From positions 992,001-1,056,000 of the forward strand of contig NZ_WBVQ01000001.1 in the NCBI RefSeq assembly GCF_008933165.1: 64,000 nucleotides of DNA. Reading direction: 5' to 3'. Under the pieces are notes generated by a model, which was not told the DNA's origin, searched no databases, and saw nothing but the letters and a program-made list of their open reading frames with translations. Each line of letters starts with the position of its first letter. The stretch's first letter is position 1. The position numbers were made by a program, and so were the translations under genes. Positions 26,768-31,454 of the stretch are shown here, one piece after another. This DNA is from Phaeocystidibacter marisrubri. Lineage in GTDB: Bacteria > Bacteroidota > Bacteroidia > Flavobacteriales > Schleiferiaceae.

Positions 26768-27646
26768 ATGGCTCAAGAATCCCGCATGCAAATCGTGGAA
26801 TGTCCGCGTGATGCGATGCAAGGCATACATCCGTTTATTCCCACACAGCGTAAGATCGACTACATCAACAGTTTGTTGAAAGTAGGGTTTGATACAATAG
26901 ATTTTGGATCTTTTGTTTCTGAAAAGGCGATTCCTCAATTGAGAGATACACGAGAGGTAGTGGAGAAGTTAGAATTGGATCAAACCGACTCAAGACTACT
27001 CAGTATAGTGGCCAATGTTCGAGGAGCGGAGGCAGCATGCGAATACGATGTTATCGATGACTTGGGGTTCCCATTTTCACTTTCTGAAACCTTTCAACAG
27101 CGAAACACCAACAGGAGCATGATGGAGGCTTTTGATGTGGTGAAGGCCATTAGCGAATTGACACACAAGCACGATAAGCGCTTGGTGGTTTATTTAAGTA
27201 TGGGGTTTGGCAATCCGTATGATGAACCTTGGAGTGTAGAGATAGTAGAAGAGTGGGCAGAAAAAATGGTGAGTAAGGGGGTGAAAGTACTCTCCTTGTC
27301 TGATACCATCGGAACCTCAAACCCAGATAGCATTGATTATCTATTTAGCAATCTCATTCCTCGTTTCGATGGCGTACTCTTCGGAGCGCATTTACACACT
27401 ACACCGTCTACTTGGTTTGAAAAAGTAGATGCTGCTTGGCGCGCTGGTTGCCGGAGGTTTGACGGAGCTATTAAGGGATTCGGTGGTTGTCCAATGGCAG
27501 CCGATGATCTTGTTGGCAACATGCCAACCGAGAAGTTGCTAAACTATGCGGCTCAAAATCAGATACGTACAGGGGTGAATGGCTTGGCCTTTGAATCCTC
27601 TTACAATGAAGCCTTAAAAACGTTTCCAACCGCGATAGGAATTTAA
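26768..27646 (+). CDS. Hydroxymethylglutaryl-CoA lyase family protein
   Basis: 292 aa. The HMGL-type TIM barrel begins IVECPRDAMQG, where Arg14 and Asp15 correspond to the catalytic Arg and metal-binding Asp of HMG-CoA lyases. The metal-binding histidines lie in LFGAHLHTTPSTW. The signature GAIKGFGGCPMAADDLVGNMPTE contains the active-site Cys and the metal-contacting Asn. HMG-CoA lyase splits HMG-CoA into acetyl-CoA and acetoacetate in leucine breakdown. No other leucine-degradation gene is adjacent, so a related lyase substrate is possible. Confidence 0.88.
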   Translation: MAQESRMQIVECPRDAMQGIHPFIPTQRKIDYINSLLKVGFDTIDFGSFVSEKAIPQLRDTREVVEKLELDQTDSRLLSIVANVRGAEAACEYDVIDDLGFPFSLSETFQQRNTNRSMMEAFDVVKAISELTHKHDKRLVVYLSMGFGNPYDEPWSVEIVEEWAEKMVSKGVKVLSLSDTIGTSNPDSIDYLFSNLIPRFDGVLFGAHLHTTPSTWFEKVDAAWRAGCRRFDGAIKGFGGCPMAADDLVGNMPTEKLLNYAAQNQIRTGVNGLAFESSYNEALKTFPTAIGI

Positions 27647-27659
27647 CTACCTTCGCGCC

Positions 27660-27818
27660 ATTCGCGGTGTCCCGAAGTTTCGGGATGAAAAGGGAATCCG
27701 GTGTAAATCCGGAACTGTACCCGCAGCTGTAATTCCATGAGTGTCTCAATCCACACAGCCACTGAGTAAAATCGGGAAGGCATGAGACAAAGGAAGAGTC
27801 AGAAGACCTGCCACGAAT
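27660..27818 (+). promoter_or_regulatory. Cobalamin (adenosylcobalamin-type) riboswitch
   Basis: The conserved blocks of the B12 element occur in order. They are a P2 hairpin CCCGAAGTTTCGGG (27671-27684), AAAAGGGAA, the P5-like hairpin CCGGTGTAAATCCGG (27698-27712), GCAGCTGTAA (27723-27732), GCCACTG (27758-27764), GGGAAGGC (27774-27781) and the B12 box AGTCAGAAGACCTGCC (27797-27812). ATTCGCGG (27660-27667) can pair with CCACGAAT (27811-27818) as the closing helix with one mismatch. It leads into the btuB-like gene. B12 riboswitches normally repress when ligand is bound. Confidence 0.95.
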
Positions 27819-27857
27819 GTAATAACACATCCTCTTCGGGAAGAAAGAGAGCGTGGC

Positions 27858-29753
27858 ATGAAAGAAAACAAGTACCTACATATTGTTGGTGCATTATTCC
27901 TTGGAATAACTAGCACCTATTCGGCAGATGCTCAAGAAGAGTTGTCGGAAGTGACAATTGAAGCACCTCGCTTTGGCAATGCACGCTATGGTTCGGATGA
28001 GCGTATTGATACGCTACCCGTTCGATCTATGGCCGATGTAAACCTAGCTGAATCGCTAGCGGGCAATTCCTCCATTTACATACGAAGCTACGGACCTGGA
28101 TTGGCCAGTACGATCTCCTTTAGAGGATACAGTCCTTCTCAAACTGCCGTGTATTGGAACGGTATGCCGCTAAATTCTCCGGCCTTAGGTCTAACAGACC
28201 TTTCAACCCTTCCTCTGGATGCTAAAGTTGAAATTGATGCGGGGGCAGCGGGATCTTTAAACGGTTCTTCGTACATGGGGGGAGCCCTTCAAGTGTATTC
28301 CAACAAACAGTTGAACAACGATCTAGAAGTTTCAAATACGTTTACTTATCGCACGTCTGGGTTGTTTGAAAACCGGGCGAGAATATCATTTAAAACGAAG
28401 CAGGTCTCGCATCATCTAGGAACGATCAATCAATGGGGGCCACTCGATTTTGAGTATACGGATTTATACGGTGATGTTCGCGAGAGGATAGGCTCGGATC
28501 AATCTGCCGTACACCTTACCTATGAGGGTAACTGGATGCTTGAGAATCGTCAGCTTACATGGGGTTTTTGGGGATCTACGATTGATAGGGGGATTCCCAA
28601 GAGCATTAGCCAGACCTATGGTCCAGGTGCCACACAATACGACGATCAAACCAGAGCCTACTTCCGATATGAAGTGGATCAGCTCAGGTATGGCTATCAC
28701 ATACAAACCAGTAACTACTGGGAGGATCAACGCTACGTAGATCCTACGGCGAGTTTAAATGACACCAACCTGGCTTGGGCACAATACAGCGATGCATCTT
28801 TCTATTACCATATTAACGAATCTCTCTTGCTTACTACCGTTCTTGATCACGCTTACCAAAAGGTGAAAGGGAGTTCTAAGTCAACTTCAGATTTACACCG
28901 AATGGGAGCTGGTGTACGCTTGAACTGGACGTTTGCAAAAGACTATCTCATCTTGGATGGCGCGCTCAAAGTAGATCATCAACAATCCCAAACACCACTG
29001 TTGCCATCGGTGGGATTGAAGCTGAATAATGTGCGAGGTTTTCATGCGCAAGCTTCCTATCGTCAGCATTTTAGATTCCCTACCTTAAATGATTTATACT
29101 GGACACCAGGAGGGAATATCAACCTTAGTCCGGAGCTTGGTTATACGGTAGATATCCGACTAAAAAAGATGTGGGATATTTCAGGAGGACTACTATCACT
29201 CTCGGTAGATCCATACTATTCTCAAGTAGAAGACTATATTCTTTGGGTTTCGGTTGGACCGTTTTATTCCCCCATGAATGTTCGAAAAGTAGAACTTTAT
29301 GGTGGGACTGTTGGAGGTTCATATGCCTCATCATCTGCGCTTACAGTGCCATTTGTAATTGGAGTAGAGGGTTCTTGGAATAGCACGAAAACTTTGGAAA
29401 GTACAAACCCCAGCGATCCAACGCTTGGGAACCAATTGATTTATACTCCAGAGTACAGAGCAGCTTTGAATGCTTCAGTCAAATTTTTAGGGGCCTCTCT
29501 TTGGATGCGAGCAACCCGAACATCCAACGTACATACTACAACCGACAACAATCCAGTCTACGATATTCCCGGATATAACCTAATAGATCTGGGGGTTGAC
29601 TATACGTTACCCTATCGTTCGGTAAATGTGACATTGGGAGCAGCAGTTCTCAATGCCACCAACGAAGAATACAGTCAGCAACGATTTTACCCTATGCCGG
29701 GGATACAAGGCAATCTATCAGTCAAATTTCAATTTAAATACCATGAGAATTAA
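27858..29753 (+). CDS. btuB: TonB-dependent cobalamin receptor (BtuB-like)
   Basis: 631 aa with a signal peptide (cleavage near SADAQ, 22-26). The plug domain (about 28-150) has VRSMADVNLAESLAGNSSIYIRSYGPGLASTISFRGYSPSQTAVYWNGMPLN, a classical TonB plug pattern, and the rest is a 22-strand-type barrel ending in an aromatic-rich strand (NLSVKFQFKYH). It imports a ligand across the outer membrane with TonB energy. The cobalamin riboswitch directly upstream gives the substrate. The 3' end overlaps the beta-propeller lipoprotein gene by 11 bp. Confidence 0.92.
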   Translation: MKENKYLHIVGALFLGITSTYSADAQEELSEVTIEAPRFGNARYGSDERIDTLPVRSMADVNLAESLAGNSSIYIRSYGPGLASTISFRGYSPSQTAVYWNGMPLNSPALGLTDLSTLPLDAKVEIDAGAAGSLNGSSYMGGALQVYSNKQLNNDLEVSNTFTYRTSGLFENRARISFKTKQVSHHLGTINQWGPLDFEYTDLYGDVRERIGSDQSAVHLTYEGNWMLENRQLTWGFWGSTIDRGIPKSISQTYGPGATQYDDQTRAYFRYEVDQLRYGYHIQTSNYWEDQRYVDPTASLNDTNLAWAQYSDASFYYHINESLLLTTVLDHAYQKVKGSSKSTSDLHRMGAGVRLNWTFAKDYLILDGALKVDHQQSQTPLLPSVGLKLNNVRGFHAQASYRQHFRFPTLNDLYWTPGGNINLSPELGYTVDIRLKKMWDISGGLLSLSVDPYYSQVEDYILWVSVGPFYSPMNVRKVELYGGTVGGSYASSSALTVPFVIGVEGSWNSTKTLESTNPSDPTLGNQLIYTPEYRAALNASVKFLGASLWMRATRTSNVHTTTDNNPVYDIPGYNLIDLGVDYTLPYRSVNVTLGAAVLNATNEEYSQQRFYPMPGIQGNLSVKFQFKYHEN

Positions 29754-30810
29754 TTCTTGGGCCCTTTTAGCTGCACTTCCAATCTTGGCGTCATGTGCTA
29801 AAGATGAGCCCAAAACATCTAAAGGCAACAACGGAGATTATGCCAATGGGATGTTCATCACCAATGAAGGTCCTTTTCAAGGTGGAAACGGAACACTTTC
29901 GTTCTACAACACCACAGATGGAACGCTTGAGAACGATGTGTTTGCGAGTGTTAACCTTCGCCCACTTGGAAACGTGGTTCACAGTATGAGTATTTCTGGT
30001 GATCAGGCATTTATTGTTGTAAACAACAGCGGTGTAGTTGAAATCGTTGATGCTGATGACATGAGCTCAAACGGAACCATTACGGGATTGCAACAGCCGC
30101 GTTACGCTGTAGGTATTGGTGCAAATGAAGTAGCAATTTCAAACTGGGGAAGTAACTCCGTTGAATTCTACAATACAACGAGTCAGTCGCTTGTTGCAAG
30201 TGTGAATGTAAACACAGGGCCAGAGCGCATGTTACTTCACAATGGCATGTTGTACGTTGCAAATTCAGGTGGTTTCGGTTTGGATTCAACCGTTACTGTA
30301 ATTGAGACTGCTACGCATACCGTTGTGGACACCTTGTACACCGGCTACAATCCTAATGGAATTGCCATTGATGCAAATGGTGATCTATGGGTATTGTGTG
30401 GTGGCTACACCGATTGGAACGATGCTTCTAACAATGAAGACGGAAGTATTCACAGATACGACATGGCCACAGGGGCAGAGGAACTCGGACTTGTATTCCC
30501 TTCTGCAGATCGACCAACTGGACTAACGCTCGACGCTTCTGGTCAAGTTTTGTACTACTTGAGCAATGGTTACGGCGGAACTCCATTCAGCCTTGACATT
30601 ACAGCCACAGCCTTGAATACTACTTCATTGGTTCCAGGTGCTTCGCTTTACTCTATGGGGTACAATGATGTGGATGGCGAACTTTATTTAGGTGACGCCG
30701 TTGATTACGCTAGCTCAGGAAAAGTGTATCGTTACGATATCTCTTCTCAAGCGGTAGTTGACACCTTGACGGTTGGAATTATTCCAGGAAACTACGCTTT
30801 CAATAAGTAA
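29743..30810 (+). CDS. Surface beta-propeller lipoprotein, BtuG-like (YncE/DUF5074 type)
   Basis: 355 aa from the ATG at 29743 (MRINSWALLAALPILASC), with lipobox LASC. The mature protein is built of repeated blades with patterns such as GMFITNEGPFQGGNGTLSFYN, VVNNSGVVEIVDADD, VAISNWGSNSVEFYN and LWVLCGGYTDWN, as in seven-bladed YncE/DUF5074 propellers. In Bacteroides, BtuG is such a lipoprotein and captures B12 on top of BtuB. The gene overlaps btuB by 11 bp under a B12 riboswitch, so the same role is inferred. Confidence 0.82.
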   Translation: MRINSWALLAALPILASCAKDEPKTSKGNNGDYANGMFITNEGPFQGGNGTLSFYNTTDGTLENDVFASVNLRPLGNVVHSMSISGDQAFIVVNNSGVVEIVDADDMSSNGTITGLQQPRYAVGIGANEVAISNWGSNSVEFYNTTSQSLVASVNVNTGPERMLLHNGMLYVANSGGFGLDSTVTVIETATHTVVDTLYTGYNPNGIAIDANGDLWVLCGGYTDWNDASNNEDGSIHRYDMATGAEELGLVFPSADRPTGLTLDASGQVLYYLSNGYGGTPFSLDITATALNTTSLVPGASLYSMGYNDVDGELYLGDAVDYASSGKVYRYDISSQAVVDTLTVGIIPGNYAFNK

Positions 30811-30837
30811 AGGTCTAGGTCTATAGACCCAGAAAAG

Positions 30838-30874
30838 AAAAGGTCCGCTCTCGAAATGAGGCGGACCTTTTTTA
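30838..30874 (+). terminator. Rho-independent terminator of the btuB-btuG-like operon
   Basis: AGGTCCGC (30841-30848) and GCGGACCT (30861-30868) form a perfect 8-bp stem with a 12-nt loop and a U-run. It is flanked by A-rich sequence, so it may also terminate the convergent DUF6580 gene. The perfect 12-bp palindrome GGTCTATAGACC lies just before it (30818-30829). Confidence 0.9.
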
Positions 30875-30893: not shown

Positions 30894-31454
30894 TTATGCA
30901 CGAGAAGCGGCGAAACGAGCTTCAACTACTTCTTTGATTCCCATAATGGCGAATCCGTAAGCTATAAAGCTAGCAACCGAGTTCAATGCGTAAGGAACAG
31001 CGGCTGTGTAACAAGCCATCAAACCAGCAAAATCTTTCGAGTACATTCCGGCATCCGCCATCCAAACTCCAAAATTGGAGATGAGGAAGAAGAGAAAAGC
31101 AGAAACTCCTCCGAAGATAGCGTAGCGTCCAAATTTGGAAAGCTTGGCATTTTTCAATCCAAATGCACCTAGTAAGCTAATCAACGCGAACGCTCCGTAA
31201 ATGTACTCAGCTCCACTGTAGAATAGAGTGAAGCCAGACCCAGTAGAATACACGAGGTTATTCAAAACCAAATCACTTGCAAATAGAGCAAGGAGAGGTA
31301 AGAGAACAGACCATGAACTCTTTCTAAACCAAGCCCCACCAATTAGAGCTACAGCACCCATACTTGTGAAGTTAGGAGCGTGAGGAATAAGACGAGTAAA
31401 TGCTGCTACTGCGAGAAGGGAAGCAACAAACGTAAATGTTTGGCGACGATTCAT
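30894..31454 (-). CDS. DUF6580 family putative transport membrane protein
   Basis: 186 aa with five to six membrane helices. The conserved N-terminal pattern RLIPHAPNFTSMGAVALIGGAWF (about 21-43) is typical of the family, which resembles small ECF-type substrate-binding components. It converges on the btuB/btuG-like operon with a shared terminator and has its own promoter. A part in cobalamin or precursor uptake across the inner membrane is possible but rests only on position. It has no riboswitch of its own. Confidence 0.78.
   Translation of the reverse strand: MNRRQTFTFVASLLAVAAFTRLIPHAPNFTSMGAVALIGGAWFRKSSWSVLLPLLALFASDLVLNNLVYSTGSGFTLFYSGAEYIYGAFALISLLGAFGLKNAKLSKFGRYAIFGGVSAFLFFLISNFGVWMADAGMYSKDFAGLMACYTAAVPYALNSVASFIAYGFAIMGIKEVVEARFAASRA

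Follow-up and report, generated by a model that had tools for sequence, protein, structure and literature searches.

A 64,000-nucleotide (nt) stretch of the Phaeocystidibacter marisrubri genome (the window, from whose first letter all window coordinates are counted) contains what appears to be a cobalamin (vitamin B12) uptake locus arranged as two convergent transcripts. One comprises a cobalamin riboswitch, a gene for a BtuB-like TonB-dependent receptor and a gene for a BtuG-like surface lipoprotein; the other encodes a small membrane protein of the DUF6580 family. Our analysis indicates that this DUF6580 protein is quite probably the inner-membrane cobalamin importer here, since gene linkage, riboswitch control and predicted fold agree from independent sides. 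With slightly less confidence we propose that the DUF6580 proteins make up a new family of solitary cobalamin importers, having a BtuM-like fold without the cobalt-binding cysteine, and replacing BtuCDF behind BtuB-BtuG in much of the Bacteroidota.

The inner-membrane gap and the predicted fold of DUF6580

An earlier note on this DNA described the riboswitch, receptor and lipoprotein as a complete cobalamin capture unit. That is apt for the outer membrane; at the inner membrane it does not hold, and the DUF6580 neighbour had gone unnoticed. In the P. marisrubri genome (3.35 Mb, 99.9% complete) a profile search for FecCD (BtuC-type) permeases gave no match, with 13 of 14 controls positive. The usual path therefore lacks its BtuC-type subunit here. 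The same genome has one BtuG-like gene, two cobalamin riboswitch matches and three B12-binding domains above cut-off, in frames of 714, 881 and 1148 amino acids that are taken, from their lengths, for methylmalonyl-CoA mutase, MetH and an IcmF-like mutase. The second riboswitch is weak (43.1 bits) and lies outside the window (L004:7577-7740), ~120 nt before a gene for a 129-amino-acid 4HBT thioesterase; a scan with stricter filters did not find it in two relatives of the same genus.

The gene for the DUF6580 protein (30894-31454, minus strand; 186 amino acids, 139.7 bits to PF20221) is the next neighbour of btuG, convergent with it across the terminator. Such proteins presumably go by the NCBI name 'DUF6580 family putative transport protein'. 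We found no literature on DUF6580 or PF20221 among open-licence papers, so that a prediction may be in print elsewhere. The AlphaFold2 (AF2) model has a mean predicted local distance difference test (pLDDT) score of 94.9 and seven helical segments by DSSP. When it was compared with 485 PDB chains using VIA-align, BtuM took ranks 1 and 2 (8ovv, Z 15.4, root-mean-square deviation (rmsd) 3.3 over 167 aligned residues; 8c7p, Z 15.2). At ranks 3 to 20 (Z 13.7-9.8), the titles of 16 of the 18 chains name vitamin S-components or energy-coupling factor (ECF) parts; the remaining two, 4huq_S and 4m58, are titled transporters, which we take to be ECF parts as well. With 18 of the top 20 rows titled BtuM, S-component or ECF part, we assign the DUF6580 model to the ECF S-component fold. 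No CbiQ/EcfT match was found in a comparison set of 99 genomes that includes our own (10 of 14 controls positive), so that DUF6580, like BtuM, would act on its own.

Some of these fold matches might suggest that DUF6580 carries cobalt ions in the manner of CbiM, which is itself among them (5x3x_m, Z 9.8) together with a transition-metal transporter (4m58, Z 10.8). Cobalamin riboswitches can, moreover, control cobalt carriers. Yet BtuM scores higher than either, no CbiQ match was found in the 99 genomes, and receptors and lids that handle complete corrinoids are encoded in the same loci as DUF6580. We therefore regard cobalt transport as extremely unlikely.

Sequence comparison adds little to the assignment of the family. 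The window protein has no match in NCBIfam, and the best match among 55 family members (E 0.0047) has an unrelated name. Two members match the Pfam ECF model PF12822 and one matches PF07155, with best E-values of 0.31 and 0.06. No match to DUF6580 was found in plasmid records. In 132 distinct DUF6580 sequences Arg21, Asn28, Asp61, Phe122 and Asn127 are fully or almost fully conserved. Asp61 (codon 31272-31274, minus strand) is present in all 132 and may correspond to Asp67 of BtuM, and His25 (codon 31380-31382, minus strand), present in 121, may correspond to the BtuM pocket residue His28, in both cases by numbering only. The invariant and essential Cys80 of BtuM, a cobalt ligand, has no conserved counterpart in these sequences, where the column richest in cysteine has it in 56 of 132. 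DUF6580 as BtuM proper is thereby ruled out; it is BtuM-like, not a BtuM.

Linkage and distribution of DUF6580

BtuG-like proteins are known above all from gut Bacteroides and are widespread in this order, with 93 matches (E ≤1e-10) in 78 of the 99 genomes, our own included. Sixty-five of the 93 lie within 8 kb behind a cobalamin riboswitch on the same strand, and 36 of these have, in addition, a BtuB match (E ≤1e-25) on their strand no more than 3 kb away. DUF6580 occurs in 64 genomes (65 matches). Forty-two of the 65 are within 5 kb of a BtuG-like match, and every one of these 42 pairs is convergent. Genomes with two BtuG-like genes commonly have one with BtuB and a riboswitch and a second that neighbours DUF6580, frequently with CobT in between.

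DUF6580 and the BtuC-type permease seldom share a genome. Strong FecCD matches (>150 bits; 35 genes) are found in 28 of the 99 genomes and DUF6580 in 64, with both in 8 and neither in 15 (Fisher p 5e-6, uncorrected for kinship). FecCD matches below 60 bits were rejected as BtuC, for they cover the model only in part, in most cases starting no earlier than position 79 and in a few at 47-50; they look like members of another permease family. Where DUF6580 is absent from the genome, 10 of 27 strong FecCD genes have a riboswitch or BtuG match no more than 8 kb away, compared with none of 8 where it is present (Fisher p 0.07). A riboswitch scan, whose stricter filters can lose weak cases, gave no match in nine of the 99 genomes. 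The five of these with DUF6580 all have B12-binding domains and the four without it have none, in a domain search that covered 20 of the 99 genomes.

Of the 35 genomes lacking DUF6580, 20 have a strong FecCD. The 15 that have neither comprise four in the family of the window organism, four with no B12-binding domain match and seven in two further families (f8 and f11). In G017, one of the first four, the contig stops shortly after the oxidoreductase gene, which in other genomes stands between BtuG and DUF6580.

More distant loci were added by scanning named genomes with a sequence pattern. The pattern was derived from a 10-sequence alignment, as one of 55 sequences was too diverse for the purpose; it gave 282 DUF6580 relatives, of which 80 were kept, 16 of them already among the fetched stretches and 64 new. 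An RNA-family scan of 61 of the 64 (L226-L228 were left out) revealed 21 cobalamin riboswitches in 17 loci, where ~0.33 would be expected from 114 matches in 249 Mb of relatives, bearing in mind that the loci are not independent (L162 and L167, and L184 and L189, look like near copies). The riboswitch immediately precedes DUF6580 in L162, L167, L182 and L215. In L162 and L167 the order is riboswitch, DUF6580, then BtuB, BtuG and BtuR, and in L204 the string runs riboswitch-BtuB-BtuG-CobT-CobS-His_Phos_1-DUF6580. Same-strand strings thus tie DUF6580 to BtuB, BtuG, BtuR, CobT, CobS and DUF4465 proteins, and to MetE in L168. Genes for NRDD-type ribonucleotide reductases stand beside DUF6580 in the riboswitch loci L162 (by Pfam) and L167, L182, L184 and L189 (by clustering). 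In all, 23 of the 64 new loci have at least one B12 feature. The DUF4465 proteins are reported as B12 binders in the available text of PMC13398666. In L222 DUF6580 is separated from a riboswitch-BtuB-BtuG set by a gene for a BtuF-type periplasmic binding protein (PF01497; L222:5591-6412).

The CobT-type genes bear on the nature of the substrate. They are present in 18 of 63 fetched DUF6580 loci (two members were tested against Pfam), and genes of both CobT and CobS type occur together in the L204 and L220 stretches (CobS was tested in L204 only). DUF6580 could on this evidence import a component used to build the lower ligand (dimethylbenzimidazole or alpha-ribazole) rather than whole B12, just as CblT of Firmicutes imports such a compound. 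Four reduced genomes (G012, G042, G049 and G058) speak against it. They keep a riboswitch, DUF6580 and a BtuB-type receptor, which lies beyond the 1e-25 limit and was assigned by its clustering with BtuB, but have no CobT and no BtuG match. Furthermore, genomes with B12-binding domains and no strong FecCD would be left without a known carrier for B12. Import of the lower ligand thus appears improbable.

Other genes recur in these neighbourhoods. Among the 63 fetched loci (L069-L131) a DAO-type flavin adenine dinucleotide (FAD) oxidoreductase is found in 24 and a helix-turn-helix (HTH) regulator in 39 (e.g. L098:8534-9670 and L070:3635-4093), often directly beside DUF6580; one member of each was tested against Pfam. 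The oxidoreductase might act on corrinoids. In one f11 genome (G069), which has a riboswitch, BtuB and two BtuG-like genes and no strong FecCD or DUF6580, the gene of a DUF998 membrane protein follows (L137:10312-10905), making that protein another importer candidate. In family f8 (L136, L138, L140 and L142) a riboswitch stands beside the gene of a distant BtuG-like propeller (E 1e-5, missed at 1e-10), with no BtuB match.

A number of observations weigh against cobalamin import by DUF6580, beginning with the missing cysteine. Several of them would suit a simpler arrangement, in which a plain BtuB-BtuG pair lies under the riboswitch, the neighbouring DUF6580 is unrelated to it and a different carrier takes B12 through the inner membrane. 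The window's own DUF6580 gene does not follow the riboswitch; it lies on the other strand and is transcribed separately. In the examined stretch 41 of the 64 distant loci have no B12 feature, 28 of them labelled Saprospirales/Lewinella-type or Balneolaceae-type. The riboswitch is on the other strand from DUF6580 in L211, and downstream of it in L213, L216 and L222 and for one of the two in L182. Strong FecCD matches are found in 8 of the 64 DUF6580 genomes, including one (G089) of the five without a riboswitch match. The seven genomes of families f8 and f11 have riboswitches and B12-binding domains with neither strong FecCD nor DUF6580, and so other routes for B12 exist. Beside FecCD and CbiQ/EcfT, other importers (BtuM itself and the BacA/SbmA type) were not searched for. 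On the structural side, the E-values of the Foldseek matches are weak (0.11 and 0.24), with BtuM again first and second at a probability of 1.00. In VIA-align BtuM is only 1.7 Z above the next S-component, and a common arrangement of helices is often enough to bring helical models to Z 13 to 14, a level that the two BtuM rows exceed only moderately. No PDB chain was found by sequence or profile search with DUF6580. Lastly, in the available text of PMC2667541, homologues of BtuFCD are present in >90% of the B12-uptaking organisms surveyed. According to that of PMC6072759, many cobalamin-auxotrophic Gram-negative bacteria have BtuB and no BtuCDF, and most membrane proteins of B12 uptake are yet to be identified; thus the size of the importer gap depends on the group.

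Despite this, an unrelated DUF6580 seems unlikely. It would have to accommodate the unbroken convergence with BtuG, the riboswitches directly before DUF6580 in four loci, the strings shared with BtuB, BtuG and BtuR, and BtuM as the best match to the fold. Cobalamin import by DUF6580 is consistent with them all.

The riboswitch-led BtuB-BtuG pair

The outer-membrane part of the locus is almost certainly a further case of the known riboswitch-led BtuB-BtuG type. The assignment is well supported by sequence matches to solved complexes, the propeller model, the lipobox cysteine and the loop-8 aromatic residue. The riboswitch aptamer (RF00174; 27648-27829, plus strand) is matched over the full length of the model (positions 1-189 of 189) with 113.9 bits (E 8.8e-28), against a gathering score of 31.5, and is the sole above-threshold Rfam match in the window. 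The earlier note was right in seeing a cobalamin riboswitch, and the start it gave, 27660, falls 12 nt inside the match. The aptamer match ends 28 nt before the start codon of btuB. Directly upstream is an HMG-CoA lyase-like gene (26768-27646), and the order PyrD, HMGL-like, BtuB recurs across many relatives.

The receptor (27858-29753, plus strand; 631 amino acids) has TonB plug and barrel domains. A search of PDB sequences returned only four matches at E ≤1, every one a Bacteroides BtuB chain (8bmx_C, 8p97_A and 8p98_A at E 4.2e-43 to 6.5e-43, and 8blw_A at 2.9e-12). The BtuB-like receptor that had been proposed is thus upheld by both domains and sequence. It scores 59.9 bits with TIGR01779, the NCBIfam equivalog for E. 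coli-type BtuB, far below the curated cut-off of 599.7, and is thus not filed under that model. Residue counting in an alignment with Bacteroides BtuB places Tyr470 (codon 29265-29267, plus strand) at the position of Tyr538 of BtuB3, in loop EL8 (loop 8). The position is aromatic in all 43 aligned rows (40 Trp, 2 Phe and 1 Tyr), which comprise the window, 27 from the loci of relatives and 15 from named loci, with L171 and L177 repeating L095 and L098. The receptor is therefore a homologue of proven Bacteroides BtuB that keeps the loop-8 aromatic residue.

The lipoprotein gene (29743-30810, plus strand; 355 amino acids) adjoins btuB in the riboswitch locus, as for BtuG, and overlaps it by 11 nt (29743-29753), exactly as noted earlier. 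The mechanical open reading frame begins upstream at 29653; the ATG at 29743 yields a lipoprotein signal, plausible as judged by eye, with the lipobox Cys18 (LASC, then AKDE; codon 29794-29796, plus strand), which is invariant in 14 of 14 aligned sequences. With 65.3 bits to PF16819 (DUF5074) it is indeed the YncE/DUF5074-type lipoprotein that was claimed. A link to BtuG had been drawn from fold and context and not from sequence identity. The fold evidence proved stronger than claimed, and the reservation about sequence was misplaced. The AF2 model (pLDDT 90.3) has a propeller fold, so that the lack of one, which the earlier note had named as a ground for refutation, is not borne out. Its top 16 PDB fold matches are all BtuG-type chains (E 2e-28 to 1e-19). 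Superposition on 8okv_A gives a template modelling (TM) score of 0.83 and an rmsd of 1.9; the number of seven blades is taken from this match, the blades themselves not having been counted. At the level of sequence, phmmer against the PDB reaches nine BtuG-type sequences, with 8bmx_D at E 4.5e-39 and the next eight at 2.5e-38 to 2.9e-37. The BtuG pocket is less conserved than the loop-8 position of the receptor. Of the four named residues of the BtuG upper-ligand pocket, to which the comparison was confined (residues behind the 13 hydrogen bonds of BtuG were left out), Tyr316 and Tyr335 are kept in the sequence alignment and Trp194 and Trp272 are not.

The single terminator of the earlier description is also present, as a hairpin at 30836-30873 between the convergent btuG and DUF6580 genes. 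On the plus strand it folds at -23.7 kcal/mol (z -6.75), none of 200 shuffles being equally stable, and its 3′ arm and tail are U-rich. It also folds on the minus strand (-21.8 kcal/mol, z -7.01), and thus may serve the DUF6580 gene too. A simple terminator scan did not list this hairpin, listing instead two overlapping minus-strand sites at 30811-30833, where the predicted folding energy is -11.1 kcal/mol (z -3.2).

A proposed pathway and its relation to known systems

We suggest that the riboswitch would control btuB and btuG in the first transcript. By homology BtuG, a lipid-anchored propeller at the cell surface, would catch B12 and form a lid on BtuB. As the lid closed, Tyr470 of loop 8 would loosen the B12, to be followed by TonB-dependent passage through BtuB. 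In the available text of PMC10404256 such a mechanism is published for BtuB-BtuG of Bacteroides thetaiotaomicron, where Tyr538 of BtuB3 is proposed to loosen B12 from BtuG. DUF6580, a small all-helical protein of S-component fold closest to BtuM, would be made from the second transcript and carry B12 across the inner membrane alone, standing in for the missing BtuC-type permease and needing no ECF module. The vitamin might then be trapped inside by its use or by adenosylation. That scarce B12 in seawater is what drives such capture, as the earlier note suggested, is a more speculative idea.

If this is correct, a Pfam family of 'unknown function' fills the B12 importer gap in part of the Bacteroidota. 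And if DUF6580 handles B12 without a cysteine ligand, cobalamin uptake by a lone S-component would have a second chemical solution. What is new here is the proposed inner-membrane partner, the outer-membrane pair being of known type.

The pair resembles BtuB2G2 and BtuB3G3 of B. thetaiotaomicron (8bmx, 8p97 and 8p98; available text of PMC10404256) in its adjacent receptor and lipoprotein genes, its cobalamin riboswitch, and the propeller fold, lipobox cysteine and loop-8 aromatic residue. It differs in that the window lipoprotein is just 24-29% identical to the 16 BtuG fold matches, and lacks the two pocket tryptophans of BtuG2. Our genome has one BtuG gene where B. thetaiotaomicron has three, and has no BtuC-type permease; nor is a further B12-binding lipoprotein seen beside the window pair. 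BtuG has also found use as a reagent (available text of PMC11287211).

With BtuM of Thiobacillus denitrificans (8ovv and 8c7p; available text of PMC6072759) DUF6580 shares the S-component fold, a solitary state with no EcfT, and a genome with BtuB and without the BtuC-type permease. In contrast to BtuM it has no conserved cysteine to serve as cobalt ligand, and sequence and profile searches of the PDB do not connect the two. BtuM is reported mostly from Proteobacteria in that text, whereas DUF6580 is found in Bacteroidota. With the BtuCDF importer, of the ATP-binding cassette (ABC) type, DUF6580 would share its job, the passage of B12 through the inner membrane, in a genome that lacks the FecCD permease of that system.

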